DNA from: an uncultured Paracoccaceae bacterium
GTDB lineage: Bacteria > Pseudomonadota > Alphaproteobacteria > Rhodobacterales > Rhodobacteraceae
Length of the DNA stretch: 64,000 nucleotides
Direction of reading: 5' to 3'
Assembly: GCA_938028765.1 (NCBI GenBank)
Contig: CALIZF010000004.1
Location: 62,001 to 126,000 of the forward strand
In this document: positions 7,476-62,632 of the stretch, piece by piece
How positions within the stretch are numbered: the stretch's first letter is position 1
Layout of the letters: each line of letters starts with the position of its first letter
The notes under the pieces: model-generated
The model's database searches: none
What the model was told of the DNA's origin: nothing
Seen by the model: the letters and a program-made list of their open reading frames with translations, nothing else
Translations under genes and position numbers: made by a program

Positions 7476-7947
7476 GGGGGCAGGTCTCGGGCTTGAGGTC
7501 GATGAGGGGGGTGCCGTCGAGACAGTCGAGCCCGCGGACGGTCAGAACGGGCCCGTCCACCGCGAGGACCGCGACGGTCGAGACGGCGACGGGGTTCGGC
7601 CGGTTGGGCGACCGGATGGCGAAGGTCCCCGTCGGGCCGCGATGACCGGGGCTCTGGCGCACCAGATCGCGCCGGGCGCGGTGCATCCAGTAGAGCACCT
7701 GGAGCCGCTGGCCGGGCGCCACCCCGTCGAGCGCCCCCTGCCAGCGCGGATCGAGGACGATGCGGCAGTCCGGGCCGCCGACCGGGTCGCCCCGGCGCGG
7801 GCACTCGGCACGGCTCGCCCAGGGCGTCTCGATCCGGCCGATGAACCACAGCGCGGCGTCGGTGCCGGCGGGGGGCTCTGCCGTCTCCTCCCCTGGGCGC
7901 AGGCGGGTTTCGTCCGGGTCGCGGGGCATGGAGGGCGCGCCGGTCAC
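7465..7947 (-). CDS. trmO: tRNA (N6-threonylcarbamoyladenosine(37)-N6)-methyltransferase TrmO
   Basis: 160 residues, UPF0066/TsaA-like family. TrmO methylates t6A37 in threonine tRNAs using SAM. Diagnostic parts are IGRIETPW near the N-terminus, FAIRSPNRPNPVAVS in the middle and LDCLDGTPLIDLKP near the end. GTG at 7947 overlaps the aminotransferase stop and is favoured for coupling; an ATG at 7929 would shorten the acidic N-terminal tail by six residues. tsaE, which works in t6A formation itself, lies elsewhere in this window. Confidence 0.9.
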   Translation of the reverse strand: MTGAPSMPRDPDETRLRPGEETAEPPAGTDAALWFIGRIETPWASRAECPRRGDPVGGPDCRIVLDPRWQGALDGVAPGQRLQVLYWMHRARRDLVRQSPGHRGPTGTFAIRSPNRPNPVAVSTVAVLAVDGPVLTVRGLDCLDGTPLIDLKPETCPHAG

Positions 7948-15656: not shown

Positions 15657-16288
15657 CTGCGGCAACTGTGACGGGCCGACGGCGGTTTGCGGGGGATCGC
15701 TTGATCATAGCGACGCACAACCTTGGCAAGGTGGAGGAGTTCGCCGCGCTCTTTGCGCCGCGCGGCATTCGCCTGGTGTCTGCGGGGGCGCTCGGCCTGC
15801 CCGAGCCGGTGGAAACGGAAGAGACTTTCGCGGGAAATGCGCGGCTGAAGGCATTGGCGGCTGCAACGGCCGCCGGTGGGGTCGCGCTGGCGGACGACTC
15901 CGGGATCGCGGTGGATGCCCTGAACGGGGCGCCGGGCGTCCACACGGCAGACTGGGCGACATTGCCGGACGGATCGCGCGACTTCGTGGCGGCGATGCAG
16001 AAGGTCCACCGGATGCTGGTCGCATCGGGTGCGCCGGAACCCTGGACCGCACGGTTCTGCTGCACCCTGGCACTGGCGTGGCCGGACGGGCATGTGGAAA
16101 CCGTCAGCGGCACGGCGGAGGGCGCCGTGGTCTGGCCGATGCGCGGGCGGCAGGGGCACGGGTTCGATCCCGTGTTCCAGCCTACGGGTGAAACGCGCAC
16201 GTTTGCCGAGCTGACGCCAGCGGAGAAGAATCAGCGCAGCCATCGCGCTGCTGCGTTGGCGCAGCTGCTGGACGCCTGTTTCACGTGA
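15653..16288 (+). CDS. rdgB: dITP/XTP pyrophosphatase RdgB (Ham1 family)
   Basis: 211 residues. It hydrolyses ITP, dITP and XTP to keep them out of nucleic acids. The substrate loop [12 protein letters not shown], the metal site [20 protein letters not shown] (quoted in part) and the C-terminal [10 protein letters not shown] with [11 protein letters not shown] are intact. The end of the gene is unusual: the last codons and stop lie inside a parS palindrome, which also holds the hemW start. Confidence 0.95.
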
Positions 16289-16292
16289 AACA
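16277..16292. promoter_or_regulatory. parS: parS site 1 (perfect palindrome)
   Basis: TGTTTCACGTGAAACA is a perfect 16-bp palindrome identical to the bacterial ParB-binding consensus. It spans the rdgB stop and the hemW GTG start, about 1.15 kb from the parB stop. ParB loads here, spreads as a CTP-dependent clamp and recruits ParA and SMC. Confidence 0.95.
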
Positions 16293-17445
16293 TGACGCCG
16301 AGACCACGCGGTTCGGCCTTTATGTCCACTGGCCGTTCTGCACCTCCAAATGCCCCTACTGCGACTTCAACTCGCATGTCGCAGCCGAAGTCGACATGGG
16401 CCGGTGGCTTGCGGCCTATCAGGCGGAGATCGCGCGCGTTGCCGCGGCCACCGGTCCACGCGTGCTCTCGACCATCTTCTTCGGGGGCGGCACCCCGTCC
16501 TTGATGTCTGCAGACCTGGTCGCGGCTGTGATCACCGCGGCGCGGGCCGCGTGGACACCAGCCAACGACCTCGAAATCACGCTTGAGGCGAATCCGGGGT
16601 CGGTCGAAGCAGGGCGGTTCCGTGATTTTCGCGCTGCCGGCGTCAACCGCGTATCGCTCGGGGTGCAGGCGCTCGACGACGCAGCACTGCGTCGCCTGGG
16701 TCGCACTCACGGAACGGCTGAGGCGCTTGCCGCTGTCATCACCGCGCAGGACACATTTGAGCGCGTGAGCATTGACATGATCTATGCACGGCAGGACCAG
16801 ACGCCGGCCGACTGGATCAACGAGCTGCGCCGGGCTCTCGCGCTGGGTACAGGGCATCTGTCGCTGTATCAATTGACCATCGAAGACGGCACCGTTTTTG
16901 CCGCCCGCCGGACACGCGGACTGCTTCCAGGCCTGCCGGATGACGACCGCGCGGCCGAGATGTTCGACGCGACGCAGGCCTTGTGCGAGTCAGCCGGGAT
17001 ACCGGCTTACGAGATCTCCAACCATGCCCGCGCAGGCGAGGAATGCCGGCACAACCTCGTCTACTGGCGCGGCCAGGAATACGCCGGCATCGGGCCGGGA
17101 GCGCACGGCCGATTGAACCTGCCCAGTGGAAGGTCGGCCACCGAAGCCATTCGGGCCCCCGGCGCTTGGCTGTACGCTGTCGAGCGACGGATGAGCGGCG
17201 AGGCATCGTGCACTTTACTGTCCGCACGCGACATCGCTGTGGAACGGATGCTGATGGGTTTACGCCTTCATGAAGGCCTGACCTTGGCGGCCATCCCGAC
17301 GGAGCTTCGGCCATCCGAGGCCATCATTGCGGAGTTGGTCGACAGCGGCCTGCTCTTCGATGAACCCGGCCGACTGCGCATCACGCCGTCAGGGCGCCTT
17401 CTGACCGACCGGATTACAGCGATGCTGCTCCCGGAGCCGACCTAG
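16285..17445 (+). CDS. hemW: Radical SAM heme chaperone HemW
   Basis: 386 residues, once annotated as oxygen-independent coproporphyrinogen oxidase-like. The Fe-S motif CTSKCPYCDFN (CxxxCxxC) follows LYVHWPF near residue 15, then FFGGGTPSLM for SAM binding and GIGPGAHGRL. HemW proteins bind heme and deliver it to respiratory enzymes and lack HemN oxidase activity. The start is a GTG inside parS site 1 and overlaps rdgB by 4 bp. Its stop overlaps that of parB tail to tail. Confidence 0.93.
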   Translation: MKHDAETTRFGLYVHWPFCTSKCPYCDFNSHVAAEVDMGRWLAAYQAEIARVAAATGPRVLSTIFFGGGTPSLMSADLVAAVITAARAAWTPANDLEITLEANPGSVEAGRFRDFRAAGVNRVSLGVQALDDAALRRLGRTHGTAEALAAVITAQDTFERVSIDMIYARQDQTPADWINELRRALALGTGHLSLYQLTIEDGTVFAARRTRGLLPGLPDDDRAAEMFDATQALCESAGIPAYEISNHARAGEECRHNLVYWRGQEYAGIGPGAHGRLNLPSGRSATEAIRAPGAWLYAVERRMSGEASCTLLSARDIAVERMLMGLRLHEGLTLAAIPTELRPSEAIIAELVDSGLLFDEPGRLRITPSGRLLTDRITAMLLPEPT

Positions 17446-18341
17446 GCACGCGCGCGAACGCGTGACAGCGCCTCGCAGAGCGCATCAAGGTCTTCGAGCG
17501 TGCGGTAGGCAACCGTCAGCGTCCCGCCGCCGGTCAGCGCGGGATCGTGCCGGATCCGCACACCCATCCGCAGCGCCGCGGACAGATCCCGCTCGAGCGC
17601 TGCAGTGTCCGCATCTTTCTGCTGATCCGGCTTGCCGGCAACGCGCCCAGACGGTGCCTTCTGCCGCCTTGCGAGCGCCTCGACATCGCGCACCGTCAGA
17701 TTTTTCGCCACGGCAAGCGTTGCCACGGCAGTTGGATCCGCGAGGCCGAGAAGGGCGCGCGCGTGGCCGGCGCTCAGGCGGCCGTCCCGCAACATCTCGA
17801 GCACCGGCTCGGGAAGCATGAGAAGCCGCATTGCGTTAGCGACATGGCTTCGGCTTTTCCCAAGCGCCTCGGCGATGCGTTCCTGGGTGTGACCGAAACG
17901 GTCGGTCAGGGTCCGATATGCCAGAGCCTCCTCGACCGGGTTCAGATCGGCGCGCTGGATATTCTCGACGATCGCGACCTCCAGAACCTCCTGGTCCGAA
18001 TAGTCCCGCACGATGGCCGGCACCTCGTGCAGCTGTGCCTGTTGTGCTGCACGCCACCGTCGTTCGCCTGCAACAATCTCGTATCCCGCGCCGGCGGGAT
18101 TCGGACGCACGATCAGAGGTTGAAGCACGCCCTTGTCGCGGATGGACCGGGCGAGCTCTGAAAGCTGGTCGGGATCAAAATCGCGCCGGGGCTGATCGCG
18201 ATTTGGAACGAGAAGGTCGATCGGCAGGATCGAGACACCCCGGTCTGCGACCGAGATATCGGCCCCGTCGCCGGCGACATCTGCCATCAGTGCAGACAGC
18301 CCCCGACCCAATCCCCGTCGATCGCTCTTCCGCTCGGTCAT
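17442..18341 (-). CDS. parB: Chromosome partitioning protein ParB
   Basis: 299 residues. The N-terminal CTPase domain carries GERRWRA (residues 92-98) and [15 protein letters not shown] helix-turn-helix ([24 protein letters not shown], quoted in part) recognises parS, and a C-terminal dimer domain follows. The [12 protein letters not shown] stretch at residues 8-19 is typical of chromosomal ParB, where it contacts ParA. It overlaps parA by 4 bp. Three parS sites lie within 4 kb, supporting a chromosomal origin-segregation system rather than a plasmid one. Confidence 0.97.
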
Positions 18342-19159
18342 GCGACGGTCCTTTCCTGGATGTGGCCGATCCGGCTCAGATACTCGGACGCCAACCTACG
18401 GTAGGCTTCGCTTCCGCGCGACGTGCGGTCATATCTCAACACAGGCATGGCGTGCGACGGCGCCTCACTTATCCGCACGTTGCGCGGAATGACGGTGGAG
18501 AACACCAGATCGCCGAGCGTTTCGCGTGCGTCGGTCTCAACCTGCTGTGCCAGATTGTTCCGCGTATCGACCATCGTCAGCACAACGCCATCGATGCGAA
18601 GTTTCGGATTCGCCGTCCGCCGAACCTCGCGAATCGTCAACATCAATTGCGATAGGCCTTCCAATGCAAAGAATTCGGCTTGTAGCGGAACCAGAACCGC
18701 ATCTGCGGCCACCATTGCGTTGACGGTCAGCAGGTTGAGGGAGGGCGGACAATCGATCAGGACCAGATCGAAGGCCAAGTCAGCCAGTGCAGGGCGGCGG
18801 AGCGAATCGCGGAGCAGAAAACTGCGCTTCTCGCGGCCGAAAAACTCGAGATCGGCAGACGCGAGGTCCGTGGTTGATGCAATCACGGAGAGTCTGTCGA
18901 TTGACGTCGGCAAGACCAGTGACGCCAGGTCCTCTTCACCAGCCATCAGTTCGAAGCTCGTCTGATTGCGGCTTGCAGCCGGGATCCCAAGCCCTGTCGA
19001 GGCATTGCCTTGGGGATCGAGATCGACGACCAGCACCCGAAGGCCCGTGTCAGCAAGCGCGGTAGACAGGTTGATGGCGGTCGTGGTTTTTCCGACGCCG
19101 CCTTTCTGGTTCGCGATCGCAACAATGCGCGTCCGTTGGCCGTCTGCAAGCTCAGGCAT
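18338..19159 (-). CDS. parA: Chromosome partitioning ATPase ParA
   Basis: 273 residues with no N-terminal helix-turn-helix, so it is the chromosomal type. The deviant Walker A KGGVGKTT starts near residue 19, the switch strand LVVDLDPQGNASTG follows, and DLVLIDCPPSLNLLT is the Walker B region. ATP-bound ParA coats the nucleoid and pulls ParB-parS complexes. It overlaps rsmG by 8 bp and parB by 4 bp. Confidence 0.97.
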   Translation of the reverse strand: MPELADGQRTRIVAIANQKGGVGKTTTAINLSTALADTGLRVLVVDLDPQGNASTGLGIPAASRNQTSFELMAGEEDLASLVLPTSIDRLSVIASTTDLASADLEFFGREKRSFLLRDSLRRPALADLAFDLVLIDCPPSLNLLTVNAMVAADAVLVPLQAEFFALEGLSQLMLTIREVRRTANPKLRIDGVVLTMVDTRNNLAQQVETDARETLGDLVFSTVIPRNVRISEAPSHAMPVLRYDRTSRGSEAYRRLASEYLSRIGHIQERTVA

Positions 19160-19760
19160 CGCGGATCTCCGTCACTAAAAGAACCACCGCACCCGGTTCG
19201 GTCGCGCTCGGCTGCGCGGCACAGTCGAACGCGTACCGTTTCCGTGCGTCGCGATACTCGTCGCCATGCCGATTGCCCTTCGGCAAGAGCGCAACGCCAT
19301 TCGGCGAAAGGTGACGACGCACCAAGGGAAGCAATGACCGAAGCGGCGCAACTGCCCGGGCGGATACGACGTCCGCGCCGATCGGAGGCAAGGCCTCGGC
19401 ACGTTCTGCCTCGACGTGAACCGTGACCCCCATCGCACGAGCTGTCTCTCTCAGGAATACGGCCTTTCGCCGGTCGCTTTCGACCAGGATCATCTCGACC
19501 GCAGGCATTCGATCAGCGAGGCAGGCAGCCACGACAAGACCCGGGAAGCCAGCGCCGCTCCCAAGGTCTGCCCAGCGCCTGACAGCCTGCGGCGCAAGAC
19601 GAACCAGTTGTGCCGAATCGAGGACGTGCCGCTGCCACAGTTCCGCGATCGAGGATTCCGCCACAAGATTGATCCTCGGGTTCCAGCGCCTCACGGCATC
19701 GCACAGAATGCGGAGACGGGCCTCAGTTTCACGTGAAACACCCGGCGTGACCTGCTCCAT
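19152..19760 (-). CDS. rsmG: 16S rRNA (guanine(527)-N7)-methyltransferase RsmG
   Basis: 202 residues (203 if GTG at 19763 is used). It methylates G527 of 16S rRNA with SAM; loss gives low-level streptomycin resistance in many bacteria. The SAM-binding core WADLGSGAGFPGLV and the following VESDRRKAVFLRE are clear, as are the early WNPRINLVAESS residues. The N-terminal residues GVSRET are encoded by parS site 2. It overlaps mnmG upstream and parA downstream. Confidence 0.95.
   Translation of the reverse strand: MEQVTPGVSRETEARLRILCDAVRRWNPRINLVAESSIAELWQRHVLDSAQLVRLAPQAVRRWADLGSGAGFPGLVVAACLADRMPAVEMILVESDRRKAVFLRETARAMGVTVHVEAERAEALPPIGADVVSARAVAPLRSLLPLVRRHLSPNGVALLPKGNRHGDEYRDARKRYAFDCAAQPSATEPGAVVLLVTEIRDA
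19725..19740. promoter_or_regulatory. parS: parS site 2
   Basis: AGTTTCACGTGAAACA matches the 16-bp parS consensus at 15 positions (first base differs), with an intact 14-bp palindromic core. It lies inside the start of rsmG, about 3.4 kb from site 1. Confidence 0.9.
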
Positions 19761-21634
19761 CACGCTCGCGCTCGCTGAGCATTTTCACGCCGCGCCCGCG
19801 TCAGCAGCAACAAAAGTGCGGCAGGAGTCATCCCCTCGATCCGCGCTGCCTGCGCCAAATTCGCGGGTCGTATGCGCATCAACTTTCCACGAAGTTCTTC
19901 CGACAGACCCGCAATCGACCCAAAGTCCATGTCCTCCGGCAACGCCTGTCCTTCATCACGGCGAATCGCCGCGGCAGACGACGCCTGCCGCTCAACAAAC
20001 GTCGCATACAACGCTTCGCGACGAAGCTGACTGACCGCCTCCGGCGGGATCGCCGCAGCCTCAGGTTCGAGAACAGCTAGCGTCTCTTGCGAAACCGCTG
20101 CAAAACCAAGACACTCCAAAAGATTTCGCGACCTGCCGTCAGCGCTAACAGGTATCCCAGCGCTTGCGAGGATTTGCGGCGAAAATCGTCGCGCAGACAG
20201 GACCCGGCGCGCCTTTTCTAGTGTGGCGATCTTCTTGTCGAATGCTGCCAGACGGGCGGCCCCGACAAGGCCGACGGCCGCACCCATCGGTGTCAGGCGC
20301 TGGTCTGCATTGTCTGCCCTCAACGTCAGCCGATACTCGGCGCGCGACGTGAACATCCTGTAAGGTTCGGTCACGCCCCGAACCGTAAGATCATCGATCA
20401 TCACACCGATATAACTCTCGGTGCGCGACAGAACGATCGGCGCCTCCCCACGCGCATGACGTGCCGCGTTCGCGCCGGCGACCACCCCCTGCGCCGCGGC
20501 CTCCTCATAACCGGTGGTCCCGTTCACTTGCCCCGCGAAGTAAAGACCCTCAATTCCCCGAACCGCAAGCGACCGGTCAAGCGCACGCGGATCGACATAA
20601 TCGTATTCGACTGCGTAGCCCGGTGCGGTCAAACGGACCTGCTCGAGCCCTCGAATGCTGCGTACGTAAGCCTCCTGCACATCTGCCGGCAGCGATGTTG
20701 AAAGGCCATTCGGATAGACCGTGTCATCGTGCAGGCCCTCGGGCTCCAGGAAAACCTGATGCGACTCCTTGTCGGCAAAGCGTACGACCTTGTCCTCGAT
20801 CGACGGGCAGTATCGCGGCCCCACCCCTTCGATACGTCCCCCATACATCGCTGATCGTCCCAGATTCGCCCGCACGATGTCGTGAGTCCTCCCGTTCGTG
20901 TGGGTGATCCCGCAGACAACCTGCGGCACGACAGGACCGGACGACAGGAACGACAACATCACCGGATCCTCGTCGCCCGGCTGCCGCTCGAGCCGCCCCC
21001 AGTCGATGGTTCGCCCGTCCAGTCGTGGCGGCGTTCCTGTCTTCAATCGCCCGCGCGGCAGGTCTAGCGCAGCAAGCCGCGCCGCGAGTTTCTCGGACGC
21101 CGCGTCGCCGACTCGGCCGGCCGGTCTGCTGACATCACCAATGTGGATGACCCCGTTCAGGAATGTCCCAGCCGTCAGGACGACGGCTCGTGCGCCAAGA
21201 GACGTGCCATCCGCAAGCACGACGCCGGAGATCCGGTTGTCACGTTCAACCAGGTCGACGACCTCGCCCCGAATGATGGTCAGCCCGGACAATTTGCCAA
21301 GAAGGTCCTGGACCGCAGCCCGAAACAGCGACCGGTCCGCCTGCACGCGTGGCCCTTGCACAGCGGGGCCCTTGCTTCGGTTCAACAACCTGAACTGTAT
21401 ACCTGCCGCATCCCCGGCACGACCGATGATGCCATCCAGGGCGTCGACCTCCCGCACAAGATGCCCCTTCCCGAGCCCACCGATCGCCGGATTGCAGGAC
21501 ATGACTCCAATCTTGGCAGGGTCGAGCGTGACCAACCCGACGCTTGAACCCATCCGGGCAGCCGCAGCAGCGGCCTCGGTTCCGGCATGACCGCCGCCAA
21601 TGACGATGACATCAAACTGTTTCACGTGGAACAC
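19760..21634 (-). CDS. mnmG: tRNA uridine-5-carboxymethylaminomethyl modification enzyme MnmG (GidA)
   Basis: 624 residues. With MnmE it installs cmnm5U at wobble position 34 using FAD, glycine and methylene-THF. The FAD-binding [10 protein letters not shown] starts at about residue 13, with [24 protein letters not shown] and [12 protein letters not shown] further on. It begins with GTG in MFHVKQ, residues encoded by parS site 3; FHVKH-like starts are frequent in alphaproteobacterial MnmG for this reason. It lies 12 bp after mnmE in the leftward operon. Confidence 0.97.
21618..21633. promoter_or_regulatory. parS: parS site 3
   Basis: TGTTTCACGTGGAACA differs from the perfect palindrome at one base; read on the other strand, TGTTCCACGTGAAACA, it fits the TGTTNCACGTGAAACA consensus exactly. 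It lies across the first codons of mnmG, about 1.9 kb from site 2. Confidence 0.9.
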
Positions 21635-22938: not shown

Positions 22939-24210
22939 TCAGCTGTTCATCGACTCGAAGAACTCGCTGTTGGTCTTGGTCGCCTTCAGCTTGCCCAGCA
23001 GGAACTCGATCGCGTCCGTCGTCCCCATCGGGTTCAGGATACGGCGCAGCACGTAGGTCTTCTGCAGGTCGTTGCGCGACACCAGCAGCTCTTCCTTGCG
23101 CGTCCCGGACTTCAGGATGTCCATCGCCGGGAAGATCCGCTTGTCGGCCACCTTGCGGTCCAGCACGATCTCGCAGTTGCCGGTTCCCTTGAACTCCTCG
23201 AAAATCACCTCGTCCATCCGGCTTCCGGTGTCGATGAGCGCCGTCGCGATGATCGTCAGGCTGCCGCCCTCTTCGATGTTCCGCGCTGCCCCGAAGAACC
23301 GCTTCGGCCGCTGCAGCGCGTTGGCATCGACCCCGCCGGTCAGCACCTTGCCTGAGGACGGGACCACCGTGTTGAACGCCCGCCCCAGCCGCGTGATCGA
23401 ATCGAGCAGGATCACCACGTCGCGCTTGTGTTCGACCAGCCGCTTGGCCTTCTCGATCACCATTTCGGCCACCGCCACATGCCGCGTCGCCGGCTCGTCG
23501 AAGGTCGAGGACACGACCTCGCCCTTCACCGACCGCTGCATGTCGGTCACCTCCTCGGGCCGCTCGTCGATCAGCAGCACGATCATATAACACTCGGGAT
23601 GATTGACCTCGATCGACCGCGCGATGTTCTGCAGAAGCACGGTCTTGCCGGTCCGCGGCGGCGCCACGATCAGCGCACGCTGCCCCTTACCGATCGGCGC
23701 CACCAGGTCGATCACGCGCGCCGACCGGTCGCGGATCGTCGGATCCTCGATCTCCATCTTCAGCCGCTCGTCCGGATAGAGCGGCGTCAGGTTGTCGAAA
23801 TGCACCTTGTGCCGCGCCCGCTCGGGATCGTCGAAGTTGATGCGCGTCACCTTCGTCAGGCTGAAGTACCGCTCGTTCTCGCGCGGCGCCTGGATCACGC
23901 CCTCGACCGAATCGCCCGTCCGCAGCGACCACTGCCGGATCATGTCCGGGCTCACATAGATATCGTCTGGCCCCGGCAGATAGTTGGCCTCGGGGCTCCG
24001 CAGGAAACCGAACCCGTCCTGCAGAACCTCCAGAACGCCGTCGCCGCCGATCTCCCAGCCTTCCTCGGCATGTTCCTTCAGGATCGAGAACATCATCTCG
24101 CCCTTGCGCATGGACGAGGCGTTCTCGATCTCCCATTCCTCGGCCATGGCCAGAAGGTCGGCGGGCGTCTTGGCCTTCAGATCGGCAAGCCGCAAATGCT
24201 CTTTCGTCAT
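22939..24210 (-). CDS. rho: Transcription termination factor Rho
   Basis: 423 residues. Rho is a hexameric RNA helicase. The N-terminal RNA-binding domain contains [20 protein letters not shown] and [18 protein letters not shown]; the motor has Walker [10 protein letters not shown], Walker [15 protein letters not shown] and the Q/R-loop region. The ATG of [14 protein letters not shown] is used because it matches the family length; the frame is open further upstream without support. It starts the tight rho-mnmE-mnmG-rsmG-parA-parB run. Confidence 0.97.
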
Positions 24211-24339: not shown

Positions 24340-24813
24340 TCAGAACCGAACGATCACCGCCAGCACGATCACCACCATCAGCAGCGTCGGTACCTCGTTC
24401 ATCAGCCGGTATTGACGACCGGTCAGGCGGTTCCGGCCCTCGGCCAGATCGCGCCGCCGCGCCGCGAGCCACCCGTGGAACGCCGTCATCCCGACCACGC
24501 CCGCAGCCTTCGCCCAGGGCCAGGCCGACCCCCAGTCCACCACACCGGGCGTCAGCACCAGCGCTAGGCCGAAAATCCAGGTGGCCACCATCGCGGGGTT
24601 CATGATGGCGCGAAGCAAAAGCCGTTCCTGATGGGCGAACAGCAGGTCCATGTCGCTGCCGCGCACCACCCCCTGCTTCCGCAAACCCTCGACATGATAG
24701 ACATAAAGCCGTGGCAGGTAGAACAAGCCCGCCATCCAGGCGATCATGGCCATCACATGCCCGGCCTTGACCCAGGGATATGCGGTTGCAAGGAAATCCG
24801 TCACGCTGCCCAT
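24340..24813 (-). CDS. hemJ: Protoporphyrinogen IX oxidase HemJ
   Basis: 157 residues with four predicted membrane helices. HemJ oxidises protoporphyrinogen IX to protoporphyrin IX in the heme pathway. The conserved histidine lies in WVKAGHVMAMIAWMAGLFYL and further signatures are LPRLYVYH and LMNEVPTLLMVVIV. In relatives it pairs with hemE near the origin; no hemE is present here. It is the last leftward gene before the putative origin and is separated from rho by 129 bp without other features. Confidence 0.93.
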   Translation of the reverse strand: MGSVTDFLATAYPWVKAGHVMAMIAWMAGLFYLPRLYVYHVEGLRKQGVVRGSDMDLLFAHQERLLLRAIMNPAMVATWIFGLALVLTPGVVDWGSAWPWAKAAGVVGMTAFHGWLAARRRDLAEGRNRLTGRQYRLMNEVPTLLMVVIVLAVIVRF

Positions 24814-25228
24814 CCGTCCCGGTCCATCGCTTCATCCCTGAAGGATAAATGGAAACGATGATGCTGATGAAGGGGCTGTGGACGAGCGGGATAGCGAATT
24901 CGATCCCCTGCGTCATCCCCAGCCCGCAACCTGTGGATCATCGGTGGACAACCCTCGGGTCCGTCACGATTATGACTGAGAAACCCATGCAAATCAGATC
25001 ATTGAGGCGTATCCATGAACCTCGGTCCTGTGGATGAAGCACGACGCGCCTGTGGCCGGTGCCCGCCGTCCGCAGCAGCGTCGTCCCACCGTCCACACGG
25101 GGACGGAGACGGTCCTGCGGCTTGACAACCGCCCGCCTCCGTCCCAGCCTCCGCCCGCTTCCGTCGGTCGGGGCAGAGACCCGGCGGAACGAAGCACGAA
25201 TGTCAACAGACTTGTCCTGCGCGCCCGG
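24814..25228. other. oriC: Candidate replication origin (oriC)
   Basis: A 415-bp gap, the largest in the window, where genes diverge: hemJ to parB run left, maf to dnaQ run right. DnaA-box-like 9-mers cluster in it: TGTGGACGA (24877), TGTGGATCA (24932), GGTGGACAA (24943), TGTGGATGA (25029) and, inverted, CCGTCCACA (25089). The two best differ from TGTGGATAA at one base. AT-rich patches occur at 24835-24900 and 24965-25015, in contrast to the GC-rich surroundings. Three parS sites lie 3.2-8.6 kb away. In Caulobacter and relatives the origin lies beside heme genes in a comparable order. No perfect DnaA box is present, so this is an inference. Confidence 0.65.
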
Positions 25229-25834
25229 ATGACCGCGCCGTCGCCCATGATCCTCGCCAGCGCCTCTGCGCCGCGCCTCGCGATGCTGCGGGCGGCAGGT
25301 CTCGATCCGGTATCGCATCCCGTGCGGATCGACGAAAGTGCCGCCATCGCGGCCCTCGCCGCCGATGGCGCTTCGCCGCGCGCCATCGCGGATGCGCTCG
25401 CGGCGGCGAAGGGCGTGCGGGCGGCCGCGCGGTTCCCCGAGGGTGTCGTCATCGCAGCCGACCAGATCCTCGATCTCGACGGAGAGGTGATCGACAAGGC
25501 GGCGGACGCTGATGCAGTCCGGGCACAGTTGCTGCGTCTTCGCGGACGGCGGCACAGTCTTCACAGCGCCGTCGTGGTATTTCACGATTGCAATCCTGTA
25601 TGGCGGCATGTGGGGGAGGCGCGCCTGACCATGCGGCAGTTTTCGGACGCCTATCTTGCGGCCTACCTGGCTCGCAACGGCGCGACGCTGGTCGGCAGCG
25701 CCGGCGGTTACCGGATCGAAGAGGAAGGCATTCGCCTCTTCGCCCGGGTTGAGGGCGACTGGCCCACAATTCTCGGCCTGCCGCTCGTGCCTCTGCTCGG
25801 CTACCTCGGGCAGCGGGGCTGGATCGCCGCATGA
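25229..25834 (+). CDS. maf: Maf-family nucleotide pyrophosphatase
   Basis: 201 residues. Maf proteins hydrolyse non-canonical or pyrimidine NTPs. The N-terminal ILASASAPRLAML corresponds to the SxSPRR loop, RIDESAA carries the conserved Glu, and the metal site reads AADQILDLDG. The ADQ form resembles YceF-type (m7GTP) rather than the ADT of dTTP/UTP-specific enzymes, so the substrate is open. An open extension to 25034 has no supporting features; ATG 25229 (or 25247) is preferred. It overlaps aroE by 4 bp. Confidence 0.88.
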   Translation: MTAPSPMILASASAPRLAMLRAAGLDPVSHPVRIDESAAIAALAADGASPRAIADALAAAKGVRAAARFPEGVVIAADQILDLDGEVIDKAADADAVRAQLLRLRGRRHSLHSAVVVFHDCNPVWRHVGEARLTMRQFSDAYLAAYLARNGATLVGSAGGYRIEEEGIRLFARVEGDWPTILGLPLVPLLGYLGQRGWIAA

Positions 25835-26670
25835 CCGCGGCGGCGCGCATTCCGCTTGCCGGCGTCATCGGCTCGCCCGTGGCGCACAGCCTGTCGCCGC
25901 GCCTGCACGCCTATTGGCTGCGGCGATATGGGATCGTCGGCCATTACATCCCGATCGATGTTGCACAGGGGGATCTGCGCGCGACCTTCGAGCTTCTGCC
26001 GCGGCTTGGCTTCGTCGGCCTCAACGTCACGCTCCCGCACAAGGAAACGGTGCTGGGCCTCGCCGACATCGTGACCGACCGCGCGGCCCTGATCGGCGCG
26101 GCCAACACGCTCATCTTCCGCAAGGACGGGAAGCTGCACGCCGACAACACCGATGTCACGGGTTTCCTCGCCAGCCTGCGGCAGTCTGCACCCTGGTGGA
26201 CCGCCGCGGCAGGCCCTGCCGCCGTGTTCGGCGCGGGCGGCGCGGCGCGGGCCGTAGTCGCCGCGCTGATCGAAGCCGGCGCGCCCGAGGTGCGCATCGC
26301 CAATCGAACCCGCCAGCGCGCCGAAGCGCTGCGCGCCGACATGGGCGCGCGCGTGACGGTGATCGACTGGGTGCAGGCCCCCGCGATGCTGGAAGGCGCG
26401 ATGACAGTCGTGAACACGACCGCGCTCGGCATGGACGGCAAACCCGAATTCCGTGTGCCGCTCGACGCGCTGGAGCGCGATGCCCTGGTGACCGACATCG
26501 TCTATCGCCCGCTTCGCACCCCCTTCCTCGAGGCTGCGGCGGCGGCCGGCTGCCGCACGGTGGACGGGCTCGGGATGCTTCTGCACCAGGCGGTCCCCGG
26601 TTTCGAACGCTGGTTTGGACGCCGCCCCGAGGTCGATGCGGACACGCGGGCGGCCGTGCTTGCCCCATGA
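25831..26670 (+). CDS. aroE: Shikimate dehydrogenase (NADP+)
   Basis: 279 residues. It reduces 3-dehydroshikimate to shikimate in aromatic amino-acid synthesis. The substrate-binding VIGSPVAHSLSPRLH, catalytic Lys in NVTLPHKE and the Asp in DNTDVTGF are present, with the NADP-binding FGAGGAARAVV and NRTRQRAEAL following. It has ATGA overlaps on both sides (maf and coaE). Confidence 0.95.
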   Translation: MTAAARIPLAGVIGSPVAHSLSPRLHAYWLRRYGIVGHYIPIDVAQGDLRATFELLPRLGFVGLNVTLPHKETVLGLADIVTDRAALIGAANTLIFRKDGKLHADNTDVTGFLASLRQSAPWWTAAAGPAAVFGAGGAARAVVAALIEAGAPEVRIANRTRQRAEALRADMGARVTVIDWVQAPAMLEGAMTVVNTTALGMDGKPEFRVPLDALERDALVTDIVYRPLRTPFLEAAAAAGCRTVDGLGMLLHQAVPGFERWFGRRPEVDADTRAAVLAP

Positions 26671-27275
26671 CGCGCAGTTTCCGGCTGGGCCTGACGGGGT
26701 CCATCGGCACGGGCAAGTCCACCACCGCCGCGATGTTCCGCGACGAGGGCTTGCCGGTCTGGGATGCGGATGCGGCAGTGCACCGCCTCTATGCCGCCGG
26801 GGGCGCGGCCGTGGCTCCGATCGCGGCGCTGCACCCGCCCGCGGTTCACGCAGGTGCCGTGGACCGGTCCGCCCTGCGCGTCTGGATCGCCCGCGACGAC
26901 ACCGCGCTGGCGCGGATCGAGGCGGTGGTGCACCCACTCGTCGCCGCCGACCGCGCCGCTTTCGTTGCCGCTGCGACCGCCGATATCGTCGTGCTCGACA
27001 TTCCGCTCCTGTTCGAGACCGGCGCGGAGGCGGAGCTCGACGCGACGCTGACCGTCACCTGCCCGCCCGATCTGCAGCGCCGCCGGGTTCTTGCGCGGCC
27101 GGGCATGACCGCGGCGCATTTCGCCGCGCTCCTCGCCAAGCAGATGCCCGATGCGGAAAAGCGCGCGCGCGCGACCCATGTGATCGAAACCCTGGGCCTC
27201 GATGCCGTGCGCGCCGCCGTGCGCGCTCTCATCGCCTATATCCGGGAGACCCGCGATGCGCGAGATCGTGCTTGA
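26667..27275 (+). CDS. coaE: Dephospho-CoA kinase
   Basis: 202 residues. It phosphorylates dephospho-CoA in the last step of CoA synthesis. The P-loop is GLTGSIGTGKSTTAAMF, followed by WDADAAVHRLY and the lid/substrate segment VVLDIPLLFETGAE, all typical. It overlaps aroE at the front (ATGA) and runs 20 bp into dnaQ at the end. Confidence 0.95.
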   Translation: MTRSFRLGLTGSIGTGKSTTAAMFRDEGLPVWDADAAVHRLYAAGGAAVAPIAALHPPAVHAGAVDRSALRVWIARDDTALARIEAVVHPLVAADRAAFVAAATADIVVLDIPLLFETGAEAELDATLTVTCPPDLQRRRVLARPGMTAAHFAALLAKQMPDAEKRARATHVIETLGLDAVRAAVRALIAYIRETRDARDRA

Positions 27276-28438: not shown

Positions 28439-28513
28439 CGTTCCTACTCCCCGAACGCCCGTCCCGCGCCTTAGCAGGAAGGGCGCGCGCCCTCAAGGCG
28501 CGGCCCGGTGCCG

Positions 28514-28930
28514 TCAGGGCCTGCGGTCACGCGGGCTCACGTCGCGGTAGTCGGTCGCGATCACGACCGGCCCTTCCCGGTCTTCCCGCCGGCTGCGGCG
28601 CAGGCGCGCGACCAGCGCCGCCCGAACCGGCGGCAGCAGCAGCGCCAGACCGACGGCATCGCTGAGGAACCCCGGCAGGATCAGCAGCACCGCCCCCAGC
28701 ATCCCGAGGGTGCCCTCGGCGATCGGCCGCGCCGGGTCGCGCAGCCCCTCGATCGCCGCGATCGTCGCGGCCATCGTGCGCGCGCCAAGGCCGCGGACCG
28801 CCGCAACCCCCAGCATCGCGCTGGCCACAACCCACAAGAGCGTCGCCGGCACGCCGATCCGCCCCCCGATCTCGACAAACAGCGCAATCTCGGCCAGAGG
28901 CCAGACGACAAAGGCGATCAGCAGCCACAT
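28514..28930 (-). CDS. fxsA: FxsA family inner-membrane protein
   Basis: 138 residues with about four hydrophobic segments, starting MWLLIAFVVWPLAEIALFVEIG, the FxsA signature (quoted positions 1-22). E. coli FxsA is named for suppressing phage T7 exclusion by the F plasmid; its normal role is unknown. The charged tail RLRRSRREDREG is cytoplasmic. It diverges from the Tim44-domain gene across 166 bp. Confidence 0.9.
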   Translation of the reverse strand: MWLLIAFVVWPLAEIALFVEIGGRIGVPATLLWVVASAMLGVAAVRGLGARTMAATIAAIEGLRDPARPIAEGTLGMLGAVLLILPGFLSDAVGLALLLPPVRAALVARLRRSRREDREGPVVIATDYRDVSPRDRRP

Positions 28931-29096
28931 TCCCGTGTCCTTTCCAGCGACCCATCGTGCCGCACGGCCGCGGCGGTGGACTTGCACGCCGCGCCACCTT
29001 ACATAGAGCTCTCGAAGTCCTGGTTCGACCGGGGCCGCGCAGAAATTCACGGCCGTGCGATGCCCCTCCGCTGCATCCGGCAAGACAGAGGTACCG

Positions 29097-61610: not shown

Positions 61611-61668
61611 CTCCTTGCGGGTTGCCCTGCGCGCAGGGCCGCCCCTTTCCCGACCGGAGCGCCGCCAC

Positions 61669-62632
61669 ATGGCCTACATCCTCAACCGCCTCCTGTCGCT
61701 GGCGCTGACGCTGTTCATCATCTCGGTCGCCACCTTCGCGGTGACCAACGTCCTGCCGGGCGACGTGGCGATGATGATCTTGGGCACCCAGTCGAACCCC
61801 GAGGCGCTGGCGGGGCTTCGGCAGAGCCTCGGCCTGAACGACCCGCTGGCCGTGCAGTATCTGCGCTGGATCGGCGGGATCTTGACCGGAGATTTCGGCA
61901 CGTCGCTGATCTTCAGGCAAAAGATCGGCCCCCTGATCCTGCAGAAGATGACGGCCAGCGCTTTCCTCGTGGTGCTGTCGATGGCCTTCGCGCTGACTTG
62001 CGCCGTGCCGCTGGGCGTCTGGGCGGCCGTGCACCGCGACCGCTGGCAGGGCATCACCGCCTCGACCGCCTCGCTTCTGGGCGTCAGCCTGCCGGATTTC
62101 TTCTGGGGGCCTGCCGGATTTCTTCTGGGGGATCGTCATGATCCTTCTCTTCGCCCGCACGCTCGGCTGGCTGCCGTCGTCGGGCTTCGTCGATCCCGCC
62201 GTCAGCTTCGCGGGCGCTGTGCGGCACGCGATCCTGCCGTCGCTGGCGCTGGGCCTCGGGCTGATGGCGCATCTCACCCGGATGACGCGATCCACCATGA
62301 CCGGCATCCTGAACCAGGAGTTCATCCGCGTCGCACGCGCCAAGGGCCTGCCCGAACGCAAGGTGATCTGGCGCTACGGCCTCGCCAATGCGATCGGGCC
62401 GGTCATCACCATCGCCGGGTTGCAGATCGGCTATCTCTTCGGGTCGATCATCGTGATGGAAAGCCTGTTCGGCTACACCGGGATGGGCTGGCTGACCCAT
62501 CAGGCGCTGTTGAACCGCGATCTGCCGCTGATCCAGGCCTGCGTGTTCACCATCGCGGCGGTGGTGATGCTGTCCAGCCTGATCGTCGATCTTCTCTATC
62601 GCGCGGTCGATCCGCGCATCCGGCTGGGCTAG
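61669..62632 (+). pseudogene. Peptide ABC transporter permease (DppB type), broken by a 22-bp duplication
   Basis: It starts MAYILNRLLSLALTLFIISV. About 140 codons in, a 22-bp segment is repeated in tandem, moving the frame by one; the downstream part (FARTLGWLPSSGF, the EAA-like loop RVARAKGLPERKVIWRYGLAN, and the last membrane spans) is in the new frame. Removing one copy gives a clean 313-residue permease. The partner permease follows. It starts 58 bp after the binding-protein stop. Confidence 0.85.
62088..62131. repeat. 22-bp perfect tandem duplication inside a permease gene
   Basis: Two identical adjacent 22-bp units (62088-62109 and 62110-62131), each containing GCCGGATTTCTTCTGGGG. The length is not a multiple of three, so it causes the frameshift. 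Slippage between the copies could restore the gene. Confidence 0.95.

Follow-up and report, generated by a model that had tools for sequence, protein, structure and literature searches.

Among the described chromosomal origins, those of Caulobacter crescentus (Cori) and Rickettsia are the natural comparison for an alphaproteobacterial locus, and we take hemE-oriC-PPSR to be the gene order of both. CtrA sites (TTAA-N7-TTAA) have been reported for the Caulobacter and Rickettsia origins; we did not treat them as defining for the hemE-linked alphaproteobacterial origin class. The Caulobacter G-box sequence and the W-box definition used here are those of PMC4285127. The unwinding step has been described in Bacillus, where cryo-EM and genetics show that DnaA is transferred from its boxes to 3'-GAT-5' trios, which lie on the strand leaving the box as a 5' tail, and that each pair of protomers captures the first two bases of a trio. 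The first G is touched by Arg202 and Glu228, the middle A by Asn187 and Glu183, and the third base by Asn196 (PMC10721633). That "deviant DnaA-trio motifs" lacking the middle adenine should exist was anticipated by the authors of this system (PMC8287927). For the Rhodobacteraceae, an Ori-Finder study (PMC6699656) predicted oriC by GC disparity and box counts and left it unplaced in 8 strains. Our analysis resembles those predictions in deriving a family-level oriC from DnaA boxes and nearness to parAB, and differs from them in an unwinding module that is not reported in the sections consulted.

The locus lies in a window of 64,000 nucleotides (the whole stretch of DNA that was analysed, the coordinates of which are used below), which comes from a draft genome of 2.94 Mb, assembled in 75 contigs and 83.6% complete. 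Judged by hemJ, the closest named relatives are Rhodobacteraceae/Paracoccaceae, e.g., Defluviimonas, Thioclava and Rhodobacter. The initial annotation proposed that the gap between hemJ and maf is a chromosomal origin, and this reading is supported by synteny, a conserved element, parS clustering, a change of strand polarity in complete relatives and hemE-PPSR intermediates. We conclude from these sequence comparisons that 24814-25228 is very probably the chromosomal replication origin, a placement that would fix the replication axis of the genome. The gap and the main genes around it are as follows:

24814..25228, no strand: probable oriC, the hemJ-maf intergenic region of 415 bases (conserved length and gene order; sole match of model R1 in its own genome)
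24340..24813, minus strand: hemJ (UPF0093), left flank (Pfam PF03653, E 1.8e-54)
25229..25834, plus strand: maf, right flank (Pfam PF02545, E 4.2e-36)
22939..24210, minus strand: rho (Pfam Rho domains)
18338..19159, minus strand: parA (Pfam AAA_31/CbiA; gene order with parB)
17442..18341, minus strand: parB (Pfam ParB_N, HTH_ParB and ParB_C)

The flanking blocks point away from the gap, as the initial annotation stated: hemJ, rho, mnmE, gidA, gidB, parA and parB run leftward, and maf, aroE, an open reading frame at 26667-27275 to the right of aroE (without Pfam assignment) and a dnaQ-like exonuclease gene run rightward. The further statement that this is the largest gene-free gap has to be corrected: by a crude coding-potential call it ranks fourth in the window, after 28439-29096 (658 bp), 61611-62137 (527 bp) and 7476-7943 (468 bp), although genes overlooked by the crude call may be present in these three longer gaps. 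Rfam and tRNA scans of the window returned no matches.

The five DnaA-box-like 9-mers that drew attention to the gap are indeed present in 24814-25228 and, as expected of a bacterial oriC, form an intergenic cluster; together with a degenerate tandem position they are:

24877-24885, minus strand: DnaA box TCGTCCACA, proximal box of the putative unwinding module (sequence match and relatives)
24886..24894, minus strand: second tandem box position, degenerate, GCGGGATAG versus TGTGGATTA in relatives (alignments)
24913-24921, plus strand: DnaA box TCATCCCCA, containing the Caulobacter W-box core TCCCCA (at 24916)
24932-24940, minus strand: DnaA box TGATCCACA, an exact Caulobacter G-box
25029-25037, minus strand: DnaA box TCATCCACA (sequence match and relatives)
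25089-25097, plus strand: DnaA-box-like CCGTCCACA (sequence match)

The gap thus has both G-boxes and W-boxes, and the G-box TGATCCACA and the core TCCCCA are shared with Caulobacter crescentus Cori and Rickettsia oriC. The motif TCCMCA occurs five times in the gap, compared to 0.66 in dinucleotide shuffles (P 0.0005), a count unsurpassed by any other 415-bp stretch of the window. There are 49 TNATCCACA sites in the assembled genome, and the sole pair less than 1 kb apart is that in the gap, with a distance of 97 bp. The exact consensus TTATCCACA is absent from the window's gap; in the gaps of 118 relatives it was found 34 times versus 0.3 in shuffles, at a density of 0.80/kb versus 0.002/kb in the flanking genes. 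Positions are also maintained among the relatives: 66 box matches on the same strand as the TCGTCCACA box fall in the bin 60-80 bp from hemJ, and 34 on the same strand as the TCATCCACA box in the 200-220 bp bin. Single 9-mers were rejected as the main evidence. Because the window contains 13 G-box matches (at most one mismatch) versus 7 expected, isolated boxes carry little weight, whereas the cluster does. The initial annotation relied mainly on such 9-mers and did not notice the conserved, putative unwinding module (24841-24885), which is better evidence for oriC.

In the most conserved part of the gap, a short GC spacer separates a DnaA box from five triplets, and an AT-rich tract lies beyond these. 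To the left of the box at 24877-24885, the components are:

24841..24856, plus strand: tract rich in A/T and in purines, putatively the first region to melt (low GC in relatives)
24858..24872, plus strand: five triplets ATG ATG CTG ATG AAG, putative DnaA single-strand track (period-3 G conservation, alignments)
24873..24876, plus strand: GGGC, the GC-rich spacer that separates the box from the triplets (first-position G conservation)

In the aligned gaps, an A/T-rich tract is followed by GATGATGATGATGTAGG-like triplets, a CTGTGGA box and then the second tandem box. Every third base of the triplets is G, and the track would be read 3'-G-N-N-5' from the box. Period-3 conservation was computed on 87 aligned matches: G occupies the third column of the successive triplets in 90, 92, 68, 93 and 72% of the 76 family sequences and in 100, 100, 100, 100 and 81% of the 11 sequences from other families, and the first spacer position is G in 97% of the family sequences. 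Across the alignment, the base directly 5' of G is mostly T, and the third position is A/T, so that DnaA would capture G first, as in Bacillus, but then mostly T. The register of the triplets was set by the position of the conserved G; a shift by one would give middle A/C triplets in the window, at a position that varies between A and T in other families.

Compared to the basal unwinding system of Bacillus subtilis, the module has the same components, i.e., a box, a GC-rich spacer, a three-base repeat and AT-rich DNA, in the same orientation, with the repeats on the 5' tail; the box at 24877 is no more than 16 bp from the three-base repeat at 24858-24872. There are three differences: (i) the invariant base is G, with T 5' of it in most triplets (5'-WTG-3'); (ii) the middle A is not conserved, and in the conserved-G register it occurs in the first triplet only, fewer than the at least three 3'-NAN-5' trios (consensus 3'-GAT-5') of the DnaA-trio system; (iii) alphaproteobacterial DnaA has Tyr/Phe in place of Asn187 and Lys in place of Arg202. 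Because the module does not fit the strict trio definition, it was not filed in the DnaA-trio family. Searches of the main text of open-access papers found neither the triplet variant nor a DnaA-trio in a named alphaproteobacterium.

The genome's own DnaA carries Tyr for Asn187 and Lys for both Asn196 and Arg202; Glu183, Lys222 and Glu228 are unchanged. In an alignment that represents better-matching genomes only, related by descent and with the divergent alphaproteobacterial DnaAs of G028 and G036 left out, residue 187 is Tyr in 36 of the 37 alphaproteobacterial rows and Phe in one (the own DnaA being counted twice); in the 25 rows from other Pseudomonadota it is Thr, Asn, Ala or Gln, and Tyr/Phe in none. 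Lys at position 202 is also found in many outgroup rows, and the only class-specific position is 187. The association of residue 187 with the triplet pattern, which carries no phylogenetic correction, is suggestive. A change at 187 alone is no proof of another triplet code because outgroup DnaAs often lack Asn187 (Thr, Ala). With these reservations, we tentatively propose, at not quite an even chance, that alphaproteobacterial origins may use a variant single-strand code, in which 3'-G(T/A)(T/A)-5' triplets replace 3'-GAT-5' and which would have co-evolved with the class-wide Asn187-to-Tyr change, Glu228 being kept and Arg202 becoming Lys. If true, the basal unwinding system would have a second dialect in this variant code. 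Whether a single code, that of Bacillus, is universal or whether dialects of it exist is the question to which the variant triplets speak, as a concrete candidate for a deviant trio with a matching protein change.

Beyond the first boxes, the gap contains two further elements:

24969..25018, no strand: second AT-rich patch of 50 bp, 40% GC (window GC; matches relatives)
24992..25004, plus strand: IHF-like site AATCAGATCATTG (consensus match)

The AT-rich patches mentioned at the outset are thus two in number and lie at conserved positions, one of them adjoining the boxes like the unwinding region of a bacterial oriC, but both are weaker than in the relatives. At 20-60 bp from hemJ, the mean GC in the 118 relatives' gaps is 0.21-0.34, compared to 0.40-0.45 in the window; the second patch falls where the relatives average 0.29 (160-180 bp), and the 50-bp stretch at 24969 is within the lowest 0.01% of the window by GC. 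The IHF-like motif WATCARNNNNTTR was detected in 27 of the 118 gaps (28 sites versus 4.0 in block shuffles), nearly all sites being in the 125-200 bp bins from hemJ. The relatives' layout, counted from hemJ, is AT-rich DNA at 20-60 bp, boxes at 60-120 bp, an AT dip with the IHF-like site, and a box at 200-220 bp; the window carries each of these elements at the matching place. Control by CtrA and CcrM was rejected: unlike the Caulobacter and Rickettsia origins, the window's gap has no exact CtrA site, it has no exact CcrM site either, and the relatives are only modestly enriched (exact CtrA sites in 12 of the 118 gaps).

In the mechanism that we propose, DnaA would bind the box cluster at 24877-25097, with IHF bending at 24992-25004 as a probable aid (IHF binding being predicted from the motif). 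A DnaA oligomer would be transferred from the 24877-24885 box to one strand of the triplets at 24858-24872 and capture the G of each triplet, a step that we regard as fairly probable. The AT-rich tract next to hemJ would be opened, helicase would load and forks would leave both ways, the direction of unwinding being likewise predicted; ParB bound at the three parS sites, which lie 3-9 kb left of the gap, would then segregate the new origins. The alternative that survives best accepts the gap as oriC and takes the triplets to be part of the AT-rich melting region or the site of another protein, with unwinding achieved otherwise, e.g., by an E. coli type of loop-back with IHF. We give this a substantial minority of the probability: the triplets fail to match the 3'-GAT-5' trio, and the IHF-like site is conserved between two groups of boxes, as loop-back needs, whereas the period of three, the adjoining box and G/C spacer, and the AT-rich DNA beyond constitute the Bacillus layout. 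There is a moderate likelihood that the module works like the Bacillus system.

The expectation that the gap is conserved in relatives was borne out. The order rho-hemJ-gap-maf was found in all 80 named relatives, with a median gap length of 391 bp, and the length is 359-463 bp in all named loci except one of 119 bp, the contig of which carries the label Flavobacteriaceae. The sequence model R1, for which 35 relatives were used and the window was excluded, matches the window once (24844-24910, E 7.8e-7), and this match, inside the gap, is the only one in its own genome. R1 matches 228 of the 296 family genomes, mostly once each, and the remaining 68 have no match at the threshold; the coordinates of hemJ and of the model across family genomes were compared by reading two lists. 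A relatives-only profile matched 73 of the 80 named loci, some of which are possibly the same genomes as in the model training set, with E<0.01 and at most 150 bp from hemJ, and none elsewhere in the loci. For draft genomes of the Rhodobacteraceae, in which GC skew is not always usable, the module offers a near single-match origin marker. Two contigs labelled Flavobacteriaceae (L252) and Sphingomonadales (L196) have a Rhodobacteraceae-like rho-hemJ-maf locus and are probably misassigned bins.

The gap also occupies the slot of the hemE-linked alphaproteobacterial origins. In G004 (locus L164), the order is rho-hemJ-hemE-gap-PPSR-...-coaE-dnaQ, with a weak profile match in this locus. In other alphaproteobacterial families, aligned model matches adjoin hemE and have PPSR or maf opposite; class-wide matches weaker than about E 1e-4 were unused, being probably mixed with chance matches, and at three of the loci of the best class-wide matches (L262, L272 and L274) none of the flanking genes searched for was found. 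Intermediate stages of hemE and PPSR loss around oriC were observed: G004 has both genes, and L018 and L023 have PPSR only, the genes in these three loci being what we take to be PPSR and hemE on recognition of their translated sequences. The window's locus is thus like the Caulobacter and Rickettsia origins in its slot, to which it is linked by the intermediates, and unlike them in that hemE and PPSR are gone, with hemJ and maf as the flanks.

On the scale of the chromosome, the three parS-like sites within 8.6 kb of the gap and the parAB genes that the initial annotation reported were recovered; such nearness of parS and ParAB is expected of a bacterial oriC. The sites are:

16277..16292, no strand: parS, perfect (sequence match)
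19725..19740, no strand: parS, one mismatch (sequence match)
21618..21633, no strand: parS, perfect on one strand and with one mismatch on the other (sequence match)

Sites of this kind (at most one mismatch) lie beside hemJ in nine genomes; single extra degenerate matches were found in G003, G190 and G139, that in G139 being far away. Strand polarity was sampled in four complete relatives (G003, G190, G109 and G285) rather than in the draft genome, at twenty stretches of 20 kb per relative. The octamer GGGNAGGG, used purely as a strand marker with no KOPS role implied, lies predominantly on the minus strand to one side of hemJ and on the plus strand to the opposite side; the switch can be located no more precisely than to a few hundred kb. 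This octamer replaced GC skew, which was rejected as a locator: the skew is weak, in the window it is positive to the left of the gap and negative to the right, i.e., locally inverted, it is flat in G190, and it is ambiguous in the sampled complete relatives. GC skew is uninformative here, unable to locate the origin, and skew alone would mislead near this oriC. The octamer, as the stronger strand marker, supports the origin at the gap. The following points count against oriC: the missing clean skew minimum at the gap, the coarse resolution of the octamer switch, the use of relatives in place of this draft genome for the strand comparison, the absence of a perfect TTATCCACA and of exact CtrA and CcrM sites from the window's gap, the degenerate second tandem box, the weaker AT tract, and the 68 family genomes without a model match. 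A local reversal of the skew was also observed in G190 (C1:330000-530000).

A second alternative takes the gap for a divergent promoter under DnaA control, or for a DnaA-titration site, of hemJ/maf, with the origin elsewhere within the same few hundred kb. The gap does divide divergent genes, DnaA boxes occur in promoters too, and the resolution of the octamer switch would permit such a shift. However, the element keeps its slot, not its genes, as is evident from the hemE-PPSR position in other families and in G004; the fixed order of AT tract, triplets, box and IHF-like site is unexpected of a promoter; it is the sole model match in most genomes; and parS clusters adjoin it, so that we regard this alternative as improbable. 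An origin at dnaA, the arrangement of many bacteria, has a negligible chance of being correct: dnaA is about 25-95 kb from hemJ in some complete relatives (G109, G003 and G139), but it is ~385 kb off in G190 and about 1.58 Mb off in G285 (dnaA at C1:1348960-1349445 versus the module at C1:2928071), with parS and the polarity change remaining at hemJ, and the window's own genome has no DnaA-box cluster beside dnaA, the place that the initial annotation had singled out for an opposing finding.

In G285, the polarity at dnaA is reversed and terminus-like, and the switch stays at hemJ; in this genome dnaA has moved near the terminus, and parS and the origin module have remained together. A separate observation in G190 is an island of 10 kb (C1:600001-610000) with 34% GC in a genome of ~68% GC.
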